A stretch of DNA of 51,801 nucleotides, taken from the NCBI GenBank assembly GCA_021777225.1, contig JAJYDQ010000022.1:1-51801 (forward strand), in the 5' to 3' direction. The notes under the pieces are model-generated. The model saw nothing but the letters and a program-made list of their open reading frames with translations, was not told the origin of the DNA and made no database searches. The position numbers were made by a program, and so were the translations under genes. This DNA comes from Deltaproteobacteria bacterium (lineage in GTDB: Bacteria > Desulfobacterota > Desulfomonilia > Desulfomonilales > Desulfomonilaceae). Positions 28,976 through 42,883 of this stretch are shown one piece after another; the stretch's first letter is position 1; every line of letters starts with the position of its first letter.

Positions 28976-30517
28976 GTGACTGATGCGGAACTACTTAAAT
29001 TTTGTGATTTTGTTCGGAACCAGATTGGACTGGATTTTCCGCAGAAGATCTGGGGTTCTTTAAGACGAAACCTTGCCAGGGGGGCGGCGGTCCATGGTTT
29101 CGGGTCAGTGGCGGAATTTGCCCGATGGGTCACAGAATCTCCTGGTGATGAGAAAAGAATCGACATTCTTGTGGGCCTTCTGACTGTGGGCGAAACATTC
29201 TTCTTTCGTGATCAAAGGGCGCTCGAAGGCATAGAACGCGTCGTCGTCCCAAACATCGTAGGAACCAGACCGGAACATGACAAGACCCTGCGTATTTGGA
29301 GCGCCGGTTGCGCCACCGGCGAAGAACCCTATTCCATCGCAATCCTTCTCAAAAGAAGTCCTTGGAGTTCTTCAGATCGGCAAATAAGGATTCTCGGTAC
29401 CGACATTAATAAAGAATCCCTAGAGAAAGCAAAGAAAGCGTTCTACAAAGAGTGGTCCTTTCGAGGGGTACCATCATGGCTAAGAAAGGACCATTTCTGT
29501 AAAGTTCCCGGTGGCTACGCGCTTGACCCAAAGATCAGGTCAATGGTCGAGTTCCGCAGGCTAAATCTCGTTTCCTTTGACTATTCTTCGGTTCTAGATG
29601 ACTTTGGTCCGGTTGACTTGGTCCTTTGCCGAAACACGCTAATGTATTTTACATCGGAGGTCCGTAAAAGAATAATTGAGCACGTTCTGTTTCGGTTAAA
29701 TACCCAGGGATGGCTGTTGGTTAGCCCTAGCGAGGTCCCTCATGTAGTTCATAGTAATCTGAGGCTTGTAACATTACCAGGAGCAATATTTTTTCAAATA
29801 AAGTCAGGACTGGGTGAAAAGAATCAACTAGTCCCGCCTTTGGCAACGATGTCCAATAATAGGAGCGGTCCTGTCTCTCAAAAAAAGGATTGGTGGAATA
29901 TTGATGAATTGAGGGAGTCACAGGCGCCGGCTTCGAAAGTTTCTCTTTTACCACCCTCGGTATTCGTGAGCCATAAGCAAAATGAAACCACCGGGACTGC
30001 GGTAGATCTGGAGCGGGCCCACAAGGCTTTCGATCATTCTGACTACCATACGACCATAAATATCCTAAAGAACGTTTCATCAAAAACTGAACCGGACCCA
30101 ACTTTGTTGGGGGCAGTCTGTTACCTTCTAGCCAAATCATATGCGAATCTGGGTTGGATCGAAGAGGCTGAAGCCGCTATAGAAAAGGCGATCAATGAAG
30201 ACAAGCTAAACGTAGCGTACCATTACATATACGCCTCAATTCTCCAAGCGAAAGAATTGCCCGAAAAGGCAGCGGAAAGGCTGGAAAAAGTCCTCTTCCT
30301 AGACCCCGACCATATCATGGCCAACATTTCGCTCGCAACCCTTGAGACAAAACTAAACAACAAGACCGAAGCTCTCCGGCACATAAGAAACGCGATGACG
30401 TTGCTTGAGGGATTGTCTCCGGAATACGTGGCGCCTGATTCGGACGGAGCTACAGCGGCCCATTTAAGGGAAATATTGATGTCGACTCTGGCCACCGCGG
30501 AAGAAGGCATAGGATGA
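28976..30517 (+). CDS. CheR-type receptor methyltransferase with C-terminal TPR repeats
   Basis: 513 residues, starting with GTG at 28976. It has an N-terminal CheR all-helix domain, then a SAM-binding methyltransferase domain with TVGETFFFRD, SAGCATGEEPYS, and CRNTLMYF. A linker rich in Ser/Pro follows (about 280-335), then TPR-like helix pairs (about 340-500, e.g. LAKSYANLGWIEEAEAAIEKAI). CheR-TPR forms are characteristic of alternative chemosensory systems such as Wsp (WspC) and Frz (FrzF), not of ordinary flagellar chemotaxis. It methylates glutamates on the receptor, with the TPR part probably controlling access. Confidence 0.92.
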   Translation: MTDAELLKFCDFVRNQIGLDFPQKIWGSLRRNLARGAAVHGFGSVAEFARWVTESPGDEKRIDILVGLLTVGETFFFRDQRALEGIERVVVPNIVGTRPEHDKTLRIWSAGCATGEEPYSIAILLKRSPWSSSDRQIRILGTDINKESLEKAKKAFYKEWSFRGVPSWLRKDHFCKVPGGYALDPKIRSMVEFRRLNLVSFDYSSVLDDFGPVDLVLCRNTLMYFTSEVRKRIIEHVLFRLNTQGWLLVSPSEVPHVVHSNLRLVTLPGAIFFQIKSGLGEKNQLVPPLATMSNNRSGPVSQKKDWWNIDELRESQAPASKVSLLPPSVFVSHKQNETTGTAVDLERAHKAFDHSDYHTTINILKNVSSKTEPDPTLLGAVCYLLAKSYANLGWIEEAEAAIEKAINEDKLNVAYHYIYASILQAKELPEKAAERLEKVLFLDPDHIMANISLATLETKLNNKTEALRHIRNAMTLLEGLSPEYVAPDSDGATAAHLREILMSTLATAEEGIG

Positions 30518-30568
30518 TAGATACCAATTCGCTTTGAATTCACATAGTCGAACTGGAGTGTGAGAATA

Positions 30569-31135
30569 ATGAATGTTTTCGACCTAAAAAGAGAATCAAG
30601 TGAAAACATCGATCGGACCGATAAGGCCGTTATTCTACGGGAGAGGGCGCTTAATCTCGCACATAAACCATGTGTGGCAGTACAGGATTCTCAGGCCATT
30701 GAAGTCCTTACTTTTGCGCTAGGGGACGAAATTTATGCTGTCGGGTCTGAGACGGTGAGGGAATTGTGCTCCTTCAAGCAGATAACCCGCCTCCCCTGCG
30801 TGCCGACTTTCGTACTGGGTATCATAAATCTCCGCGGGAAGATATTTTCGGTTATAGACCTCAAACGCCTTTTTGAACTTCCGGGAACACCATTTTCCGA
30901 AAAAAGCAAGGTTATGATTTTGGGGTTCGGAGATATGGAGGTTGGCATACTGGCCGACGACGTGTTCGGCGTGCAGGAAATTCCAGTATCGGAAATACAG
31001 CAGGACCTACCAACACTAAAAGGAATCAACGAAAAATACCTTTATGGAATAACTCTGGAAAGACTAACCATCATTAATGTTGAAAGTTTACTGACCGACG
31101 GTTCAATTCTGGTCCATGAAACGATCGAACCCTGA
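30569..31135 (+). CDS. CheW-like coupling protein (second copy)
   Basis: 188 residues from the ATG at 30569 (GGAG ten bases upstream); a GTG at 30560 is too close to that site. The N-terminal 45 residues are charged and variable, followed by a CheW domain (LTFALGDEIYAVGSETVREL; FVLGIINLRGKIFSVIDLKRLF; MILGFGDMEVGILADDVFGVQEIP). It occupies the WspD position, after CheR-TPR and before the receptor, implying two coupling proteins with different roles. Confidence 0.88.
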   Translation: MNVFDLKRESSENIDRTDKAVILRERALNLAHKPCVAVQDSQAIEVLTFALGDEIYAVGSETVRELCSFKQITRLPCVPTFVLGIINLRGKIFSVIDLKRLFELPGTPFSEKSKVMILGFGDMEVGILADDVFGVQEIPVSEIQQDLPTLKGINEKYLYGITLERLTIINVESLLTDGSILVHETIEP

Positions 31136-31182
31136 CTCGGAGTTTTGAGATGTGTATGATGGTTTGATAAGGAGAAAATCAG

Positions 31183-33249
31183 ATGATCAAATTCTTCGCC
31201 CGTAGTCTTTTGGCAAAAATGATAGGGCTATTCTTGGCGGTGTCTCTGATTCCAATCGTTTTGGTCGGGACTCTCTCCTATTGGAGCGCAATGAGCGCAT
31301 TCCAGAAAATTCAGTTTACCAACCTCGAAGAGGCTGCGGATGTTCGCAAATCACAGATCATAAGCTACCTGAATCAAACGATGATGGACGTTAAATTTCT
31401 CTCTTCATTAGATGTTGTGCTGAATTCTTCGAATCAACTGAGATCCGCTGTTGTCGAGAACTCCGGAAATTCGCGTGACGGGAATCCGGATATACGGAAT
31501 GACGATTATTCGAACGCTTGCAAAGATCTCAACCCCATTTTCAAAAGGTTTATGGAAGTGCTGGGAAACGAATCCAGCGGATACGACGACATCTACATAA
31601 TCGACGGTGTTTCCGGGATGGTTCTCTACAGTTTTAAAAGAAGGCAGGAAGTTGGTACCAGTTTAAAGAATGGACCCCTAAGGGAATCCGGTCTTGCCAA
31701 GGTATGGGACAGGGTTTCTCGAACACGGAAGCCGGCTACCGTAGATTTTTCTTCCTTTGCTCTTTCAGGGGCCCCTGAAATGTTCTTGGCGACTCCCTAT
31801 GGACTTGACACTACTGGAAACCCTAATTTCATCATGACCATAGGGATTAAACCCAACAAGATCATCAAAATTATGAAAACAGCCATAGGCGTTGGAGAGA
31901 CAGGCGAAACAAGATTGGTAGGACAGGACCGCATCATGAGATCGGACACCCGTTCAGGCTCCGAATCAGCTTTCTTCAGGAAAAGGGATGAAATGAAGCC
32001 GGCTGGTCTTGCTCTCAAGGGAGAGACTGGAGGAGTTGTAGGTGAAGACATCACGGGGGAGCCTTCTCTGGTTTTTTATATGCCCGCAGGGATCAGCAAA
32101 GATGAAAATCTAGGCGCAGACTTTGAATGGGCGATCATTTCAGATATTGATTTAAAAGAAGCGTTGGCCAGCACTGTCGACCTCGTCTGGCGAATAGTTT
32201 TCATAGGCCTGACTATAGCCTTAATCGTCGCGATCCTGGCTTTCCTGGCGGCCCGTGGACTTTCCAAACCGATCAGAATGATGTCGGAGCAAGCCTCCAG
32301 AATTAGTGAAGGTGACTTAACCGTAGAAATGACAGCGGGAAAGCGGAAAGACGAAATCGGCCAACTCTCGGAGTCCTTCAGTACTATGGTTGAGAACTTA
32401 CGGCAACAAACTCGGGAAATCCTTGATGGAGTGAATATTCTGATGTCTTCGTCAACCGAAATTTCCGCGACATCGTCTGAACTTGCGGCCAGCGCGTCCG
32501 AGACTTCTTCTGCTGTAAGCGAAACCACTACTACGGTTGAAGAATTGAAACAAACTGTTAGCCTCTCTAGCGAGAAGGCCAAATCGGTTGCGGACAGGTC
32601 TCACCTCACGTTTCAAATCGCCCAGGGCGGAAAGAAGTCCACAGAAGAAACCATTAGCCGTATGAACCTTATCAAGAGCCAGATGGAATCAATTGGCGAA
32701 ACCGTAGTACGTTTAAGCGAGCAGAGTCTGTCCATTGAAGAGATAATAACCGCCGTCAAAGATTTGGCGGAACAGTCGAAACTCCTGGCGGTTAACGCTT
32801 CTATTGAAGCAGCTAGAGCTGGTGAACAGGGTAAAGGGTTCGCTGTAGTAGCGCAAGAAATTAAGAGCCTCGCGGATCAGTCTCGCCAAGCTACCGACCA
32901 GGTCAGGACAATTCTCGATGAGATTAGGGCATCAATAAGCGCAGTCGTTATGGCGACAGAACAGGGCAATAGGGCCGTCGACGCGGGGTCCAAACAATCT
33001 CGTGAGGCGGGGGCGGCTATCGATGAAGTTACTAAAAGTGTACACGAAGCAGCTCAAGCTCTTACAGTTGTGGTCGCTTCAAGTGAGCAACAATCGGTAG
33101 GAGTTGAACAGGTCTCTGAAGCTATGGACAGCATCGATCAGGCCATGCGTCAGAATGTCGAGGGAACCAGACAACTTGAAACAGCAGCTAGAAATCTGGA
33201 ACTGCTTGGTCAGCGATTAAAGGACTTCGTAAACAAATTCAAGGTCTAA
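31183..33249 (+). CDS. Methyl-accepting chemotaxis protein (transmembrane receptor)
   Basis: 688 residues. A first membrane helix (about 12-32), a large extracytoplasmic sensor region (about 33-335, probably a double Cache-like fold), a second helix (about 337-357), a HAMP domain ([23 protein letters not shown]) and a long coiled-coil signalling domain. The hairpin tip [38 protein letters not shown] binds CheA and CheW. There is no C-terminal tethering pentapeptide. It is the only receptor in this operon and so probably the dedicated sensor. The ligand is unknown. Confidence 0.93.
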
Positions 33250-33260
33250 GGAAATCCGTC

Positions 33261-35798
33261 ATGGACAAGAGAGAAGAGGAATTCCTCAAGAGACTCAAAG
33301 CCACGTTCAAGGTCGAGGCTGATGAACATATTCAGACCATCTCTTCGGGACTGCTGGAAATCGAAAACACCGCTGATACCGAGGAAAAGATCCGAATACT
33401 GGAAACAATTTATCGTGAGGCTCATAGCTTGAAAGGCGCTGCCCGAGCGGTAAGCCTTCGGGATGTTGAGAAAATTTGTCAGGCCATGGAAAGTGTTCTG
33501 TCGCTCATTAAAAAAGGCGAATTGCCAACTTCTTCACTGGTTCTTGATACTCTTCTCGACTCTATAGAGGGAACAGCGAAACTAATATCAACAGATGAAG
33601 TCTTTCCAATCGGAGAATTACTTCAGCGTTTGTCCAATGTAGCCTCCGGTCATATCTCGCCTTCGGATAAACCATTGCAAGTCTCTGAGCAATATATTAC
33701 GCCGATTTCCAGGAAGACCATTGAAACACCTGCTGATTCATCAGCTTCCAGGACTTCAGACATAGCATTTGGGACAGGGGAAATAGGCCCTGTAGTAGGT
33801 GGCAACAGAGATGCTGAAACGGTCCTTACGGGATATCGATCAGATGAGTCACCGGGCTCCCATTCTTCTGAAACTGTTCAAACAGGACCAACATCACTTG
33901 ATGAAGAGAAACAATCCGCCGAAGTTTCGGATCCAGGCCACTCATTTTCTCCAGATATAGTGGCTCGAGTGTCATCCCAAAACATTCCACTCAAGTCCAA
34001 ACGGCCATCTCTGACAGAAACGGTTAGAATACAATCCTCAAAACTGGATTCCCTCCTCTATCAGGTTGAGGAAATGGTGGCGCTAAAAATGTCCGCCAAC
34101 CAACGTGTTTCAGATTTGAAAAATGTCAAGTTAAAACTGGACTTGCATCGAAAGCAGTGGGCCAAGGTGAATCCGGAGCTTAGAATATTGAAAGCCTTCG
34201 CGGAAAATTATGAAGACTACAGTTCAAAAGGTAACTTCAAGCCACATTTGCTCAAGATGGTAGATTTTCTGGAGTCAAATGAGGCTATATTAAAAACGAT
34301 TGAAGGGCAACTAAAGGCCCTCACGTCTATGGCTGAAAATGATTCACGACAGGCGTCCTCTATGGTAGATGACCTCCTCGACGACATGAAAAGTGTTTTG
34401 ACGTTACCATCTTCCACTCTCCTGGAGATGTTTCCACGCCTTGTTCGCGACCTGGCCGGAGTTCAGAAGAAAAAGATCAGGCTCTCGATTGATGGTGGTA
34501 ATATCGAAATTGACAGAAGAATCCTTGAGGAAATGAAGGACCCTTTGGTTCACCTGGTAAGGAATTCGATTGATCATGGATTGGAACAGCCTGACATCAG
34601 AATTCGCAAAGGGAAGACTGAAGAAGGAACTCTATCGATATCAATTTCTCAACTGGGCGCAAAAAAGGCCGAGATAGTTGTCAGCGATGATGGAGCAGGA
34701 ATCGACCCCGAAAAAGTCAAGCAGGCGGCTATACAGAGAAACATTGTTACCGAACAGGAATTACGTAATATGGGTGAAGGAGAAGTCTTATCTCTAATAT
34801 TCAAATCTGAGGTTTCCACTAGCCCCATAATCACAGATTTGTCGGGCAGAGGATTGGGCCTGGCAATTGTAAGAGAAAAGGTTGAACGACTGGGGGGTGT
34901 GGTAATCGTCGAATCCAGGCTTGGATTGGGAACGGAGTTCCGTATCCAACTTCCAGTCACACTGGCTACCTTTAGAGGCGCCTTGGTGCAGGTAGAAAAG
35001 GAACTCTTTGTAGTGCCGACGGCGAGTGTGATCAGAGTTGTTAGGGTAAAACACGACTCCATTGGCACCGTTGAAAGCAGAGACACCATTCTAGTTGATG
35101 GTCGGGTTTTATCTTTGGTCCGATTGGCAGACGTTTTAGAAATTGGCTCGACGCCTGATGAGCAGCATGATTCACAGTTTGTGACTGTATTGATCCTCGG
35201 GGCTTCAGATCAGAAGATCGCGTTCAGTGTTGACGCCATACTTAATGAGCAGGAAGTTCTTGTAAAAAGTTTAGGGCGACAGTTATCCAGGGTTCGTAAC
35301 GTTTCTGCAGCGACTGTTCTAGGGTCAGGACAAGTTGCCCTAATACTGAATGTTTCCGATCTGATCAGGTCTGCGATGAAAATTTCAAATGCAGGATCGC
35401 TCACGCGCCCCAAGCGATCAGAAAATGCTTCGAAACGAAAATCGATTTTAGTAGTGGAAGACTCAATCACTTCTAGAATGTTGCTGAAGAATATTCTAGA
35501 ATCAGCCGGGTATAATGTCCAAACCGCCGTGGATGGGGCCGACGGATGGGCGACACTTAAAACAGGAAATTTTGATGTCGTGGTTTCAGATATAGAAATG
35601 CCCCGAATGGACGGTTTTGAACTGACTGCGAAAATCCGTGGAGACGAAACCCTTCGGAACACTCCGGTGGTGGTTGTAACATCTCTCGAATCGAGACAGG
35701 ACAGAGAAAGAGGAATCGACGTAGGCGCCAACGCGTACATAGTTAAAAGCGGTTTCGAGCAAAACAATCTTTTATCGGTCATTAAACGCCTTGTTTAG
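33261..35798 (+). CDS. CheA-type histidine kinase with C-terminal receiver (CheA-REC)
   Basis: 845 residues. The N-terminal HPt domain has phosphoacceptor H55 (REAHSLKGAARA). A Ser/Thr-rich linker follows (about 140-260), then a dimerisation region, a GHKL ATPase (about 423-565; LVHLVRNSIDHGLE, VSDDGAGID, GRGLGLAIV), a CheW-like domain (about 570-690) and a receiver domain (about 726-845; LVVEDSITSRM, VVSDIEMPRMDG, VTSLE). CheA-REC fusions are seen in Wsp (WspE), Frz (FrzE) and Pil (ChpA) pathways, where the receiver acts as a phosphate sink or gate. It is 11 bases from the receptor gene. Confidence 0.93.
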   Translation: MDKREEEFLKRLKATFKVEADEHIQTISSGLLEIENTADTEEKIRILETIYREAHSLKGAARAVSLRDVEKICQAMESVLSLIKKGELPTSSLVLDTLLDSIEGTAKLISTDEVFPIGELLQRLSNVASGHISPSDKPLQVSEQYITPISRKTIETPADSSASRTSDIAFGTGEIGPVVGGNRDAETVLTGYRSDESPGSHSSETVQTGPTSLDEEKQSAEVSDPGHSFSPDIVARVSSQNIPLKSKRPSLTETVRIQSSKLDSLLYQVEEMVALKMSANQRVSDLKNVKLKLDLHRKQWAKVNPELRILKAFAENYEDYSSKGNFKPHLLKMVDFLESNEAILKTIEGQLKALTSMAENDSRQASSMVDDLLDDMKSVLTLPSSTLLEMFPRLVRDLAGVQKKKIRLSIDGGNIEIDRRILEEMKDPLVHLVRNSIDHGLEQPDIRIRKGKTEEGTLSISISQLGAKKAEIVVSDDGAGIDPEKVKQAAIQRNIVTEQELRNMGEGEVLSLIFKSEVSTSPIITDLSGRGLGLAIVREKVERLGGVVIVESRLGLGTEFRIQLPVTLATFRGALVQVEKELFVVPTASVIRVVRVKHDSIGTVESRDTILVDGRVLSLVRLADVLEIGSTPDEQHDSQFVTVLILGASDQKIAFSVDAILNEQEVLVKSLGRQLSRVRNVSAATVLGSGQVALILNVSDLIRSAMKISNAGSLTRPKRSENASKRKSILVVEDSITSRMLLKNILESAGYNVQTAVDGADGWATLKTGNFDVVVSDIEMPRMDGFELTAKIRGDETLRNTPVVVVTSLESRQDRERGIDVGANAYIVKSGFEQNNLLSVIKRLV

Positions 35799-35813
35799 AA
35801 CCGAGCGAACGCC

Positions 35814-36872
35814 ATGATTAAAGTTCTTATAGTAGATGATTCCACGGTGGTGCGGGACTTATTGAAACACATCTTCTGCTCCGACAAGGAAATTGTGGTT
35901 ATTGGAGAGGCAAAAGATGGGCTGGAGGCGGTTGATCTGGTCAGCAGAAATAGGCCGGATGTTGTTACCATGGACATCAACATGCCTCGACTCAACGGGT
36001 TTGAAGCTACCCGACAAATCATGGAAAAAACCCCTGTTCCAATAGTAATAATCACTGCCAGTTGGGACCCTAACGATGTTGGAAAGACATGGTTGGCGAT
36101 GGAGGCTGGCGCAGTCGCTGCTATTGAAAAACCCAGATATTCCAATGAGGAAGATTATAGAAAAAGTTCTGAAAATATAATCGACACTGTCAAACTTATG
36201 TCACAGGTTAAGGTCGTAAGAAGGTGGTCACCTAATCGGCTTCGCAATTTACAATCTGAAACCCCAACCAAGATTCACAATGGACTAACAGTACGGCCGT
36301 ACGGAATAATAGCCATTGGAGCTTCAACGGGTGGACCACCGGTAATCAAGCAATTACTGGAGGCGCTTTCTTCGGATTTTCCCACTCCCATTGTAATCGT
36401 TCAACATATTGCCAGAAATTTCACTGCAGGGTTTGCAGAATGGTTGAATCAATCGACACAGCTGAGAGTTGAGGTGGCCAAACACGGTGATCGTCTGGAA
36501 CCCGGGACAGTATACGTAGCTCCAGATGGATTGCACTTGAAGATTGACATGTCCAATCGCGTCGTCCTGACCAACGATCCACCGGAGAACGGTCTAAGAC
36601 CTTCGGTTTCCTATTTCTTCAGGTCGGTGGCCGCTGTTTTCGGAAATAAGGCGATTGGCATACTTCTCACAGGCATGGGTAGAGATGGGGCCAATGAGAT
36701 GAAAATTCTTAGAGATACAGGCGCTATTACTGTAGCTCAGGACAAAGATTCCTCCGTGGTTCACGGCATGCCGGGGGAAGCCATTAAATTAGGAGGAGCT
36801 TCTTATATAGCTTCACCCGATAAAATTGCAGGTCTGCTCATACGACTGGCAAACGGTAGTGAGAAGAGATGA
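35814..36872 (+). CDS. cheB: CheB-type receptor methylesterase/deamidase
   Basis: 352 residues. An N-terminal receiver (D54 in VTMDINMPRLNG) and a methylesterase domain with the catalytic triad S171 (GASTGG), H198 (VQHIA) and D291 (MGRDGANEM). It opposes CheR by removing methyl groups once phosphorylated by CheA. It overlaps the next kinase gene by 4 bases, so the two are translationally coupled. This is the WspF position. Confidence 0.95.
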   Translation: MIKVLIVDDSTVVRDLLKHIFCSDKEIVVIGEAKDGLEAVDLVSRNRPDVVTMDINMPRLNGFEATRQIMEKTPVPIVIITASWDPNDVGKTWLAMEAGAVAAIEKPRYSNEEDYRKSSENIIDTVKLMSQVKVVRRWSPNRLRNLQSETPTKIHNGLTVRPYGIIAIGASTGGPPVIKQLLEALSSDFPTPIVIVQHIARNFTAGFAEWLNQSTQLRVEVAKHGDRLEPGTVYVAPDGLHLKIDMSNRVVLTNDPPENGLRPSVSYFFRSVAAVFGNKAIGILLTGMGRDGANEMKILRDTGAITVAQDKDSSVVHGMPGEAIKLGGASYIASPDKIAGLLIRLANGSEKR

Positions 36873-39415
36873 AAACCGAATCGCTCAATGAGGTTTCTGA
36901 CGCGGGTGAAAACTCAAATATGAAGATCCTGGTTGTTGAAGATAGTCAGACTCAAGCTATTCGTCTCCAACATATTCTGGAGACGAGAGGATTCGAGGTC
37001 ACGGTTGCTTTAAACGGCAAAGCCGCTCTCGAACATCTTGAGCACGATCACCCGACAATAGTGATCAGTGACGTGATAATGCCGGAAATGGATGGTTACG
37101 AACTCTGCAGACGTATCAAATCGGATGAAAGCCTTAAAGATATTCCTGTGATTCTTTTGACATCTCTTTCAGACCCGGAGGACATAATACGAGGGCTCGA
37201 GGTCGGCGCGGACAACTTTATCACCAAGCCATACCAGGAAAAACTTCTGGTTTCACGAATTCAATACATAATAGTGAACCGGGAAATCAGGGCCAAATCC
37301 ACTACCGGTCTAGGTATTGAGATCTTCTTCGCCGGCAGGAAACACTTCCTGGAGGCGGATCGGATCCAGATTGTTGATTTGCTTCTTTCGTCTTATGAAA
37401 CCGCGGTTCAAAACTATCATGACCTCGAAAAAACCAACGAGGAACTGATCCGGGCCAGTGAACTGATTTCCGCTGAGGCAAACAAGCTTCGGACATTGAT
37501 AGAATGCCTCGATGCAGGAATCGTCTTTGCCGACGAAAACGATATAATCACCGAAATCAACAACCGACTTGCCGAATTGTTTGGATCCAAAAGAGCGGAG
37601 GTGCTGGGACGAACGATCTGGGAGGTTCATAGAGATAATCCTTCCCTTCAACATGTGCGGGAAATAATATCCAGCTTTAAAACGGGGCAATCACGTGAGC
37701 GCGTTTCGTTGGACCGCAAACTTTTAGGGCGCGATCTATCCATGCGTGTCCAGCCGATATTTGAAATTGGCGTTTATAGAGGGGTCATCCTAAGCGTCAT
37801 AGACGTAAGTGATTTCGTTCAGGCGCAAGAACAAACCAAACAGGCAAACAGGGCCAAGAGCCAGTTTCTTGCCAATATGAGCCATGAGATAAGAACACCT
37901 CTTAATGGGATAGTTGGTATGGCCCAATTGGCGCTCAATACCGACCTGAGTGACCGTCAACGGGAATACATAGAAGCCATAAGGACGTCTTCCCAGGACC
38001 TAATTAACATAATCAACGACATATTGGATTTTTCCAAGATTGAGGCTGGAAAATTGTCCCTGTTTCCCGCGATATTTAGTTTGAGGGAATCGGTATCAAA
38101 TGTTGTGTCGAACCTGGCCATTCAAGCCTACACCAAAGGCGTAGAATTGATTTATCATGTTGAAGACGACGCTCCGGACCAGGTAATTGGCGACGCAGGC
38201 AGATTGAGACAAATTCTAATCAATCTTGTAGGTAACGCCATAAAGTTTACTGAACATGGAGAAATTTATGTCAACATCAAGTCCGAGCCTTTGGCTCAAA
38301 ATAGTCTGAAACTTTATTTCGCAGTTCGAGATACAGGAGTCGGAATTCCCAGCGATAAGCTGGGCACTATTTTTCAAGCGTTCGAACAGGTTGATTCCTC
38401 GTCTACACGTCAATTCGGCGGAACGGGGCTTGGCTTGGCAGTTTCTTCACAGCTTTGTCAGATGATGGGCGGAGACATCTGGGTTGAAAGTGAGTTGGGT
38501 AAAGGAAGTGTTTTTTATTTTACGGTAAAGATGGAACCAGGTCATGAAGAGACGGCAAAATCAGATTTGACCGGGGCGCTAGGAGCACTTTCGGGACTTT
38601 CTGTCTTGCTGGTTGAAGACAATGCGACAAACCGGAGATTATTTTACCATACGCTTTCTAAATCCGGCTTAACTCCTAAGGTGGCCTCAAACGCCGAGGA
38701 GGCGATTTCAATCCTTCGGACGGCTAAACAAGTTAATACTAGGTTCGATTTCATTCTGGCCGATATGACATTACCGGACAGGACTGGATTGGATCTGGTC
38801 GATGAAGTCAAAAGCAGGGACTTGGCCCCTGAGTCAAAATTCATTCTTTTGGTACCTAGAGGACTCACCCTCGACGCGGTTAAACGTGACCACCTTGATC
38901 TGACCGCCTGCATATCAAAACCTACCGGGCCGTCTGAACTCATAGCCGGTTTACTGAAGACACTGAATGTTTCGGGCCCATTGTCTCAGACAAAGGCTGC
39001 CCCGGTCGGGTCGCAGAAACCTGAGGATAAAAAGGAGTCGCTACGTATACTTGTTGCTGAAGACAACCTGATAAATCAGAAGTTGGCAAAATACATGCTT
39101 TCAAACTTAGGGCATGAGGTTACCCTTGCAGCCAATGGCAAAGAAGCAGTGGAAAGCTCCCAGAACAGCCAGTTTGATTTCATACTCATGGATGTCCAGA
39201 TGCCGGTCATGGATGGCCTTGAGGCAACGCGTGCGATTCGAGAGCGTGAGAAACAATCCTACCTGCATATACCTATAATAGCGCTCACTGCCCACGCCAT
39301 GAAAGGGGACCGCGAACGTTGCCTGGAAGCGGGGATGGATGACTATATTTCAAAACCCATAAACTATTCCGAACTTATGGAAGCTATCAAGAGGATTCAC
39401 GCTGAATACCCTTAA
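36869..39415 (+). CDS. Hybrid sensor kinase: REC-PAS-HisKA-HATPase-REC-REC
   Basis: 848 residues, no membrane segments. An N-terminal receiver (D68 in ISDVIMPEMDG), a coiled region, a PAS-like domain (about 205-318; ECLDAGIVFADENDIITEINNR), HisKA with H339 (ANMSHEIRTPLNG), HATPase (LVGNAIKFTEHGEI, GVGIPSDKLG, GGTGLGLAVS), then two receivers (about 570-690 and 718-840; the latter with LMDVQMPVMDG and SKPINYSEL). The first receiver could take phosphate from CheA, and the last two would need an HPt partner not seen here. In Wsp systems this place is held by a GGDEF response regulator; here the output is a second kinase. Confidence 0.93.
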   Translation: MKTESLNEVSDAGENSNMKILVVEDSQTQAIRLQHILETRGFEVTVALNGKAALEHLEHDHPTIVISDVIMPEMDGYELCRRIKSDESLKDIPVILLTSLSDPEDIIRGLEVGADNFITKPYQEKLLVSRIQYIIVNREIRAKSTTGLGIEIFFAGRKHFLEADRIQIVDLLLSSYETAVQNYHDLEKTNEELIRASELISAEANKLRTLIECLDAGIVFADENDIITEINNRLAELFGSKRAEVLGRTIWEVHRDNPSLQHVREIISSFKTGQSRERVSLDRKLLGRDLSMRVQPIFEIGVYRGVILSVIDVSDFVQAQEQTKQANRAKSQFLANMSHEIRTPLNGIVGMAQLALNTDLSDRQREYIEAIRTSSQDLINIINDILDFSKIEAGKLSLFPAIFSLRESVSNVVSNLAIQAYTKGVELIYHVEDDAPDQVIGDAGRLRQILINLVGNAIKFTEHGEIYVNIKSEPLAQNSLKLYFAVRDTGVGIPSDKLGTIFQAFEQVDSSSTRQFGGTGLGLAVSSQLCQMMGGDIWVESELGKGSVFYFTVKMEPGHEETAKSDLTGALGALSGLSVLLVEDNATNRRLFYHTLSKSGLTPKVASNAEEAISILRTAKQVNTRFDFILADMTLPDRTGLDLVDEVKSRDLAPESKFILLVPRGLTLDAVKRDHLDLTACISKPTGPSELIAGLLKTLNVSGPLSQTKAAPVGSQKPEDKKESLRILVAEDNLINQKLAKYMLSNLGHEVTLAANGKEAVESSQNSQFDFILMDVQMPVMDGLEATRAIREREKQSYLHIPIIALTAHAMKGDRERCLEAGMDDYISKPINYSELMEAIKRIHAEYP

Positions 39416-40090: not shown

Positions 40091-42223
40091 ATGGTGAGTT
40101 CCAAGCATATGGAAAAGGGACGCGTATTGATTGTCGACGACCAGGAGGAGATACTTACTTCTCTTGGCGCCATATTGGCTGACGAAGGCCACGATGTTTT
40201 AAAAGCCCGTGACGGTCAGGAAGCCTTGCACACCGTGCAAAGCGACTCTCCGGATATTGTTTTTCTCGATATATGGATACCGGGGATTGATGGTATGCAA
40301 ACTTTGAAAGCAATAAAGCGTATTTCCCCGAAATGCCACGTCATAATGATGAGCGGCCACGGCACGATTGAGACGGCGGTAAAAGCCATTAAGCTTGGCG
40401 CTGAAGACTACCTCGAGAAACCGCTGAATCTGGAAGACACTCTTCATTTGGTTGAAAAAGCAATAGCATCGAAAGGCGGCAGAGCTGAAGTCACGGATTT
40501 TTCTCATGGAAACTCCGGCATGTTGATTGGCTCATCCCAACTTACGGCAAACACGCGCAGGTCCGTCGAGAACGCGGCGCATGAAAATGGTTCGGTCTGG
40601 ATATATGGTGAAAAGGGCTCTGGCAAAGAATTCATTGCCCGCATGATTCATTTCATGTCAGGCAGAGACAGACATAAACTCATAAAGATTGTTTGCGATG
40701 AGCTGGCCGTAGACAATGTCCGCGACATTCTACTAGGCAGGATCGGCGATCGCGACATAACAAAACAGGGAAAGATTACTCTCGCCTCGGGAGGTACCCT
40801 CCTTTTTGTGGGAGTTGACAGACTCAAGCCGGGATTGGAATCATTAATAAAGAAAATTCTTGCTGAGGCCGGGGTTTACAGCAGAGGAAACTTAGGTGGC
40901 TCAAACCACGTAAGATTGCTTTTTACATCAAAGAAATCTTCAGAAGAAATGCTGGTTGCAGGATATGACAGTGACGCTATAAAATCCTTCACCCAGCGTG
41001 TGATTCGTGTCCCTGCCCTGCGGGAACGACCTGAAGACATCGCCTTACTGGCAAGACATTTTCTTGCCGAGGCCTGTAGCGAATTCGACAAAGAAATTTC
41101 AGACATAGAAGAAGAGGCGCTCGCTAGATTACTTGAACACCCCTGGCCTGGAAACATTAAGGAACTAAAGATCCTGGTAGAACACACCGTGATGAATACT
41201 TCGGCGCGGACGCTGACAATCAACGAATTGCTGTTACCGGCGAATCCCGGCGCTCAAATCAGTAAATCGATTCAGGGGCCTGCGCCGGGGAGCGCTGGAG
41301 GACTCATTGAGACCTTGTGTTCCGGGACAGATCGTCATATATCAGGAGACACCTTTATAACTCTCGACTCTGAACAAAAGGCCCACCCCAGGAGACAAAA
41401 AACCCTGCGCGGTAAGGTTGTCATATACGGCCAGGGATTACACTCAGGGGAAAAGACAGGATTGACAATATCTCCTCTGCCCCCATCGTCGGGAATCAAT
41501 TTCGGCCATATAACATCCGGAGGGACTGTTCCAGCATTGCTGACATTTGTAGAATCAACGGACTTCAGCACCAGTTTGCGGGGAGATGAGTCGCTCGCCA
41601 AAACAATTGAACATCTAATGGCTGTATTTCACGTCTACGGATTGACAAACCTGCTGGTAAAGATTTCCAGTGAAGTTCCCATAATGGATGGGTCTGCCCT
41701 GGAATTTTGCAATCTTGTTGAAAGCGCTGAAATAATTACACAGGATGAAATAGTAGAAGAAATAAGGATCTCGGAACCGATAGAACTCTCAATGCCGCCG
41801 GAAAGTTCCAAAAGCATGAGGATCGAACCGTCGGACATCCTGGAAATTGAATATCATATGGACTATCCTCGCCCCATAGGGAAAATGACCATGACATTCA
41901 GGCTCTCCTCGGTCCAGGATTTCAAATCCGAGATTGCGCCGGCCAGGACTTTTGGCTTTGTTAAAGACATGAGAATCATGGACGAAATGGGATTAGCGGG
42001 AGGGGGCAAACTGTCTAACCTGATCCTACTCGATGAAGATAAGGTAGTAAATCCTCCACTACGTTTTCAAAATGAATTTGTAAGGCATAAGATACTTGAC
42101 GTTCTCGGGGATTTTTATCTACTTGGTCGACCCATAGTGGGTAAGATCATTGCCAAACAAACAGGGCACAGAGACAATGTAGCTATGTTGCGTCTGATCA
42201 ATGACCGACTCGGCGTGCTTTAA
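40091..42223 (+). CDS. lpxC: Response regulator fusion: receiver - degenerate AAA+ - LpxC deacetylase
   Basis: 710 residues in one uninterrupted frame. Residues 10-125 are a complete receiver (D16, D17, phosphoacceptor D60, S88, K110). Residues about 145-385 resemble an NtrC-type AAA+ domain: Walker A GEKGSGKE (173-180) is kept, but the GAFTGA loop is absent and the Walker B acidic pair is replaced (GGTLLFVGVD, 234-243). Instead of a Fis-type DNA-binding domain, residues about 437-706 are LpxC, which removes acetyl from UDP-acyl-GlcNAc, the committed step of lipid A synthesis. Zinc ligands H508, H666 and D670 and catalytic E507 and H693 are present, so the enzyme looks active. A start at M7 (40109) is possible. 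Confidence 0.93.
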   Translation: MVSSKHMEKGRVLIVDDQEEILTSLGAILADEGHDVLKARDGQEALHTVQSDSPDIVFLDIWIPGIDGMQTLKAIKRISPKCHVIMMSGHGTIETAVKAIKLGAEDYLEKPLNLEDTLHLVEKAIASKGGRAEVTDFSHGNSGMLIGSSQLTANTRRSVENAAHENGSVWIYGEKGSGKEFIARMIHFMSGRDRHKLIKIVCDELAVDNVRDILLGRIGDRDITKQGKITLASGGTLLFVGVDRLKPGLESLIKKILAEAGVYSRGNLGGSNHVRLLFTSKKSSEEMLVAGYDSDAIKSFTQRVIRVPALRERPEDIALLARHFLAEACSEFDKEISDIEEEALARLLEHPWPGNIKELKILVEHTVMNTSARTLTINELLLPANPGAQISKSIQGPAPGSAGGLIETLCSGTDRHISGDTFITLDSEQKAHPRRQKTLRGKVVIYGQGLHSGEKTGLTISPLPPSSGINFGHITSGGTVPALLTFVESTDFSTSLRGDESLAKTIEHLMAVFHVYGLTNLLVKISSEVPIMDGSALEFCNLVESAEIITQDEIVEEIRISEPIELSMPPESSKSMRIEPSDILEIEYHMDYPRPIGKMTMTFRLSSVQDFKSEIAPARTFGFVKDMRIMDEMGLAGGGKLSNLILLDEDKVVNPPLRFQNEFVRHKILDVLGDFYLLGRPIVGKIIAKQTGHRDNVAMLRLINDRLGVL

Positions 42224-42750
42224 TCTTCCTGTTTATGCGACCCTGTTGGGGAAAGAAAAAGACTAAAGTATCTGCCAAAAATATAAAAGCCGACCAAAGC
42301 GCCAAGCAAATGCGCATATTCCAATTGGAAGAACTGGCCTAATTCACCAGGAACGTCTCCAAGCTCGAACATGAAATAAAATAAGTCGAAAGACTCGCCA
42401 GCCAACCATAGCGCAGCAACAAGTCCCAATAAAGCAAAATAGAGGCTTGACCACCGTTTTGCGAATGCGCTGGTTTTTGACCACTGGTAGGCGCGAAATG
42501 CCTGAACAACCAGGTAAGGCGCCAAAACCCTCGACAAAAGCAGCAACGCGGACCCCAGACTGGACGTCCCCGAATTGACAATCTCCTGATAAATTAATTT
42601 CAAACCATATTCACTGATGTCGCCGCGCAGAACAAGGAACAGAAACGCTAGAGGAAATATAGATATCGAAAGGACAAGAATCGTAATTTCACGAATAATA
42701 ATTCCAATCATGCCACCTATTATAGCACTATCCTGACTCTTTTTGATCAT
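42220..42750 (-). CDS. Predicted multi-spanning membrane protein
   Basis: 176 residues from the ATG at 42748-42750 (an upstream TTG at 42795 would add 15 basic residues and has no support). Four to five hydrophobic helices are seen, e.g. IIIREITILVLSISIFPLAF, LGSALLLLSRVLAPYLVVQAF and LYFALLGLVAALWLAGESF. The short cytoplasmic tail is polar (SPTGSHKQED). No family recognised. It is convergent with the LpxC fusion, their stop codons overlapping by 4 bases. Confidence 0.75.
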   Translation of the reverse strand: MIKKSQDSAIIGGMIGIIIREITILVLSISIFPLAFLFLVLRGDISEYGLKLIYQEIVNSGTSSLGSALLLLSRVLAPYLVVQAFRAYQWSKTSAFAKRWSSLYFALLGLVAALWLAGESFDLFYFMFELGDVPGELGQFFQLEYAHLLGALVGFYIFGRYFSLFLSPTGSHKQED

Positions 42751-42883
42751 TTCGTTGCATCTGGGAGCCTTTTTTCTTTGTGGGCTCCGTCTCAATCAGT
42801 TATACTTATTTTCTATTGCGCTTCCGCAACCTAATTTTGATAAATCATTACTATTTCACAATTCTACATTCCAGGAGGAATTT

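Follow-up and report, generated by a model that had tools for sequence, protein, structure and literature searches.

A response-regulator receiver fused to LpxC in Desulfobacterota: a candidate two-component system acting directly on lipid A synthesis

The main finding of this analysis is that the only LpxC of a bacterium of the Desulfomonilaceae is encoded, within the window (the whole stretch of 51,801 nucleotides that was analysed), as the C-terminal part of a response regulator, and that such fused proteins are widespread in the Desulfobacterota. LpxC catalyses the committed step of lipid A synthesis, which is essential and a drug target. The best explanation of the comparative sequence data is direct phospho-control of LpxC: the fusion would be an NtrY-NtrX-type response regulator in which the kinase NtrY phosphorylates D60 and alters the attached LpxC, so that lipid A would follow an envelope signal without a transcriptional step. 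We put the probability of this reading at roughly 0.7. Slightly less firmly, we hold that about 25 Desulfobacterota families share a two-component system with the committed enzyme of lipid A synthesis as its direct output, formed when NtrX was fused to LpxC and its DNA-binding and sigma-54 functions decayed.

The fusion gene is one uninterrupted frame of 710 codons with zero internal stops (Table 1), as a first-pass annotation of this DNA had described it. The receiver and LpxC residues listed in that annotation were all found in place and are conserved across 93 relatives. Met7 is the probable conserved start, since several relatives have a stop codon just 5' of it. In E. coli numbering, the zinc ligands H79, H238 and D242 correspond to H508, H666 and D670, and the catalytic E78 and H265 to E507 and H693. 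The domain clears the curated cut-offs for LpxC (UDP-3-O-acyl-GlcNAc deacetylase) of both PF03331 (262.8 bits vs 27) and TIGR00325 (209.6 vs 187), and deacetylase activity is predicted. It differs from ordinary LpxC in carrying an N-terminal receiver (REC) and AAA+ region and in falling in a separate REC-fused clade. The genome (4.04 Mb, 97.6% complete) also encodes LpxB and has no LpxC match apart from the fusion; a stand-alone lpxC was sought elsewhere in this genome and none was found. A 191-aa ORF without Pfam match (42220-42795, minus strand) runs towards the fusion and overlaps its stop codon, and ORFs of similar size occupy the same place in several genomes of the family.

Table 1. Coordinates of the fusion gene and its parts in the window
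Feature	Position	Strand	Remarks
REC-AAA+-LpxC fusion gene, 710 aa	40091..42223	+	probable true start Met7 at 40109
Receiver (REC), aa 12-120; D16, D17, D60 (nt 40268-40270), S88 and K110 intact	40124..40450	+	Pfam Response_reg 1e-30
Degenerate NtrC/NtrX-type AAA+ core, aa 145-287	40523..40951	+	Pfam Sigma54_activat 6e-13, weak for its length
Walker A / P-loop GEKGSGKE, aa 173-180, intact; conserved among aligned AAA-bearing relatives	40607..40630	+	
AAA+ lid (AAA_lid_14), aa 311-380, well conserved	41021..41230	+	WPGN[IV]KELK; sensor II Arg to Lys
Variable linker, aa 386-433; site of Fis-type HTH in other families	41246..41389	+	alignment
LpxC deacetylase domain, aa 436-703	41396..42199	+	Pfam LpxC 5e-78; E507, H508, T620, H666, D670 and H693 intact

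In alignment, the AAA+ core of the window protein is without GAFTGA and without the Walker B Asp-Glu (V240 and G241 stand there instead), both losses having been recognized at first reading, and it also lacks the arginine finger. The earlier statement that there is no helix-turn-helix (HTH) agrees with the lack of any Pfam HTH match in the 710-aa protein. The domain had been called dead, which is apt for the motor but not for the P-loop, which is kept: judged from its motifs it is dead as an ATPase and sigma-54 motor, but it may still bind nucleotide because Walker A is intact. The top NCBIfam match of the protein is NtrX (NF051870), at 242 bits far below the 600-bit cut-off, and the protein is not classed as NtrX. 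An AlphaFold model of the fusion built from six close sequences gave no usable fold (pLDDT 43, pTM 0.35). Production of a separate LpxC from an internal start was considered and judged unlikely: between aa 380 and 510 of the window frame there is no in-frame ATG before 510, only TTG (e.g. at 409 and 458), the linker contains no in-frame ATG and a single in-frame TTG (aa 409), and 55 of 93 fusions lack an ATG in the interval of -40 to +7 codons relative to the start of LpxC.

The window is a contig from a 153-contig assembly, and an artefact that joined an ntrC-like gene to lpxC by misassembly or frameshift had to be considered. It was rejected, and we regard it as having a negligible probability, given that the same full-length, stop-free frame is found in 16 of the 17 other genomes of the family (57-91% identity), in one of them on a contig of 6,500,104 bases, and that the fusions form a clade with full support. 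The first-pass annotation had named an assembly join, or homologues that are always separate genes, as grounds for abandoning the fusion; the full-length homologues in other genomes exclude both. A narrow scan of close relatives also recovered the same protein from metagenome-assembled genomes (loci L002-L006). Extra N-terminal domains in three long frames (L143, 1423 aa; L168, 1007 aa; L178, 1093 aa) were rejected, there being no Pfam match in that part; the long N-termini of L143 and L168 are open-frame artefacts, since a different frame of that stretch encodes an NtrY immediately upstream.

The fusion is not restricted to the family of the window. We searched 395 Desulfobacterota genomes with a profile of the fused-type LpxC (beyond the phylum the scope was the narrow scan of close relatives) and observed a gap between fused-type matches (about 1e-97 or better) and stand-alone matches (about 1e-75 or worse). 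Within this gap, near 1e-83, fall REC-LpxC proteins of G242 and G284, both diverged. Counted from the survey tables, a REC-fused LpxC is present in 90 of the 395 genomes, about a quarter, distributed over about 25 families, and 85 of these 90 genomes have a single LpxC match. A receiver was present in every fused-type protein retrieved (n=93 besides that of the window). In a tree of the LpxC domain the 93 fused proteins are separated from 37 stand-alone ones with support 100/100, which makes one origin of the fused lineage the simplest reading. Several genomes deviate from the common pattern. G242 (L186) and G284 (L187; see also L198) both contain a stand-alone lpxC alongside a REC-LpxC copy that is highly diverged (branch length 1.48) and possibly a specialised paralogue; in G242 the stand-alone lpxC is followed by ntrY and then by an lpxK-like gene. 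G418 has two REC-LpxC genes (L135 and L142). In genus g84 of family group f41 (G115, G147, G175, G201, G225, G268 and G288), complete or near-complete genomes gave zero LpxC match, and these organisms are possibly lipid A-less.

The receiver and the enzyme are conserved throughout, and the region between them varies. About three quarters of the fused proteins, 70 of 93 in the LpxC-tree set, are short REC-LpxC proteins of about 420-490 aa, and the remainder (about 700-770 aa) retain the AAA+ region. Relatives with the full REC-AAA-LpxC arrangement were found both in the family and elsewhere in the phylum, and in all AAA-bearing fusions aligned (n=24) Walker A is kept, whereas GAFTGA, the arginine finger and the glutamate of Walker B are lost and the sensor II region has an Arg to Lys change. 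Stand-alone NtrX proteins next to NtrY mostly have GAFTGA and the arginine finger. A Fis-type HTH, read from the alignment as there was no HTH model match, lies between lid and LpxC in most AAA-bearing fusions outside the family of the window, in members of f3, f5, f35, f50, f75 and f107; in the family of the window (f1) the AAA+ region is present and this HTH is lost. An equivalent of D60 is found in every fused protein with a readable N-terminus (the sole substitution, in L131, reflects a misread N-terminal frame, and L126 is truncated), and K110 has an equivalent in 93 of 93. Similarly, the equivalents of LpxC E78, H79, H238 and D242 are present in 93 of 93 and that of H265 in 92, the remaining row being truncated. 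The fused proteins end a few residues after the LpxC fold (aa 703 of 710 in the window) and have no long C-terminal tail.

The NtrX-like AAA+ and HTH remnants, together with the operon linkage of separate ntrX and lpxC genes, point to a history in which an NtrX gene joined lpxC and its DNA-acting parts then decayed. In a receiver tree the majority of fused receivers cluster with the NtrX-type regulators of the phylum, including two that are linked to lpxC, and not with the other NtrC-like regulators of the genome; this tree is too short to give an order of events. Loss of AAA+ from REC-LpxC and its gain by REC-LpxC are both compatible with tests of topology, which rejected neither the AAA-bearing nor the REC-only forms as a single clade (AU p 0.41 and 0.31).

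Another important finding was the association with an NtrY-like kinase (NtrY_N-HAMP-PAS-HisKA-HATPase), which is the commonest neighbour of the fusion and lies directly upstream on the same strand. A profile search placed the fusion directly behind ntrY in 29 loci, all from families other than that of the window, and in four of these the genes overlap by 4 nt. In genomes with stand-alone LpxC, lpxC often adjoins ntrY-ntrX, in clusters of the type lpxC-(DUF4390)-ntrY-ntrX. When the fusion is located away from NtrY, 36 of 40 genomes encode exactly one NtrY at the threshold used. In fused genomes the unlinked NtrY is without an adjacent NtrX in 30 of 31 loci, while in stand-alone genomes NtrY has one in 20 of 20 (Fisher p about 3e-13, on the assumption that the genomes, which are related, are independent); locus L233 ends 182 bases past the kinase and is uninformative on this point. 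The sole exception, G316, belongs to the same family as G277, in which the only LpxC is of the stand-alone type; on this basis we would guess that the G316 fusion was acquired. Since the fusion lies directly behind ntrY, or NtrY is unlinked and lacks an adjacent NtrX, the natural reading of these gene arrangements is that NtrX was fused to LpxC and that the fused protein took its place.

The genome of the window encodes one NtrY (G000:C21, L197:2202-4406), on another contig and without a neighbouring regulator, which over its full length shares 37-41% identity with the closest NtrYs encoded next to fusions. It has orthologues in most of the family; because the genes are unlinked there, the pairing of NtrY and fusion in this family is made by elimination. 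Two kinds of small genes were seen near ntrY. In the window genome the start of the unlinked ntrY is overlapped by a gene for a Zincin_1-type metallopeptidase (L197:4403-4777, minus strand), and a similar small gene is found at the NtrY start in two other genomes of the genus (L225 and L226). A DUF4390 protein of about 200 aa recurs between lpxC and ntrY or just before ntrY (e.g. L147:2640-3239 and L200:10336-10941) and is a candidate signal partner of NtrY.

Comparison of the window with its 91%-identical relatives gave dN/dS values of about 0.02 in REC, 0.045 in both LpxC and the AAA+ lid, 0.11 in the AAA+ core and 0.3-0.5 in the linker, which makes the receiver more tightly constrained than the enzyme.

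In the mechanism that we propose, the membrane sensor kinase NtrY would phosphorylate D60 of the receiver, and the phosphorylated receiver, by dimerisation or contact, would alter the covalently attached LpxC in activity, oligomeric state or turnover, with an effect in either direction. Lipid A synthesis would then track an envelope signal directly, bypassing the lpxC gene. NtrY as the phosphodonor in the species of the window, the phosphorylation of D60, the direction of the effect and a switch of catalysis or of stability are what we infer for this system. The first-pass annotation had likewise proposed LpxC as a two-component output, and this part of its interpretation gains strong comparative support from the single-origin fusion, the invariant phosphorylation residues, the stronger constraint on REC than on the enzyme and the putative NtrY partner. 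Its other part, a former AAA+ body acting as a lever or oligomerisation scaffold, does not hold as a general principle, since about three quarters of the fused clade have no AAA+ domain at all; for the same reason AAA+ is dispensable for the principle of control. In the family of the window the AAA+ core probably survives from NtrX as a remnant that binds nucleotide but does not hydrolyse it, and the region may add a nucleotide-dependent contact.

A variant of this mechanism is that phosphorylation sets the abundance of LpxC, the receiver gating proteolysis as a phospho-regulated degron, FtsH-like in effect. As a sub-case of the two-component reading it shares part of the confidence given to the best explanation, and in this specific form we consider it possible though doubtful. 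Receiver domains more often act via dimerisation, and no protease adaptor or degron was identified. The amount of LpxC is nevertheless the controlled quantity in E. coli (PMC12444477; PMC3333781), and with no long tail behind the LpxC fold, control could have shifted to the N-terminus. A different kinase is suggested by the surroundings of the gene in the window, where a complete chemosensory cluster (28976-39415, plus strand) lies directly upstream: CheR-TPR, CheW, MCP, CheA-REC, CheB and a REC-PAS-HisKA-HATPase-REC-REC hybrid kinase with three REC domains. If CheA or the hybrid kinase (33261-39415) were the cognate kinase in this genus, LpxC would be wired to a chemosensory-type array. This we judge unlikely: among the tabulated loci of the family a similar run, judged by gene sizes, occurs at only one other (L098 in G004, of the same genus), and the family conserves an NtrY orthologue that has no NtrX beside it. 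CheA-type arrays, moreover, usually use CheY or CheB receivers.

Fusion of neighbouring genes can be neutral, and the fusion might merely co-express two modules, with REC inert or a phosphate sink and LpxC constitutive. The receiver is the most constrained part of the protein, however, and its phosphorylation residues are invariant over about 25 families while linkers diverge freely, which leaves this alternative a little less likely than a chemosensory kinase. Lower still we rank a trigger enzyme, in which LpxC would sense its substrate and feed back on a regulator half that still acts on DNA or other partners. The Fis-type HTH kept between lid and LpxC in AAA-bearing families other than f1 would fit such a role, but f1 has no HTH, the majority of the clade lacks AAA+ and HTH alike, and the motor motifs are lost in every AAA-bearing form aligned.

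The preferred reading, direct phospho-control by NtrY, has parallels in known systems. In Rhodobacter sphaeroides NtrYX restrains lpxC, apparently indirectly, a mutant having an 8.8-fold higher lpxC transcript level and more LPS (PMC7240162). The fusion resembles alphaproteobacterial NtrY-NtrX in the NtrY-type kinase architecture, in a REC and AAA+ region that is nearest to NtrX/NtrC and in LpxC as control point; it differs in that the regulator is fused to LpxC, with sigma-54 motifs lost and in f1 the HTH lost as well, so that control would be direct and not transcriptional. The only DNA target of DVU2934, a GAFTGA response regulator of Desulfovibrio vulgaris, is lpxC, and the operon orthologous to that of DVU2934 in Syntrophobacter fumaroxidans has lpxC immediately upstream (PMC3333781, PMC4641369). 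Both this regulator and the fusion are NtrC-type response regulators of Desulfobacterota tied to lpxC, a likeness drawn by description and not by sequence, but DVU2934 is a separate protein acting on the gene, whereas here the regulator is part of the enzyme. An LpxC-FabZ fusion is also known (NF009667, PRK13188), in which LpxC is joined to a dehydratase rather than to a signalling module. A review of 2025 covers the Rhodobacter NtrYX-lpxC relation and Caulobacter and does not mention the fusion; it describes control of E. coli LpxC by FtsH proteolysis and control in other groups as poorly known (PMC12444477). Literature searches of openly licensed papers found no published LpxC-response regulator fusion, which is weak evidence of absence. 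The order of domains, REC and then an enzyme, is that of the CheB, GGDEF, EAL and HD-GYP response regulators. Their outputs are signalling enzymes, whereas the fusion would act through an essential enzyme of outer-membrane biosynthesis.

The series from a separate ntrX beside lpxC, via NtrX-LpxC with and without HTH, to REC-LpxC suggests how a transcription factor could become part of its target enzyme. The fusion gives a reason for the linkage of NtrYX and lpxC in distant proteobacteria, and it opens the setting of LpxC in bacteria that lack the E. coli machinery to direct tests. For a large anaerobic phylum, the REC-LpxC fusion represents a defined and testable route of LpxC control, and it suggests that the enzyme itself, and not its gene, is under direct control of a membrane sensor kinase.
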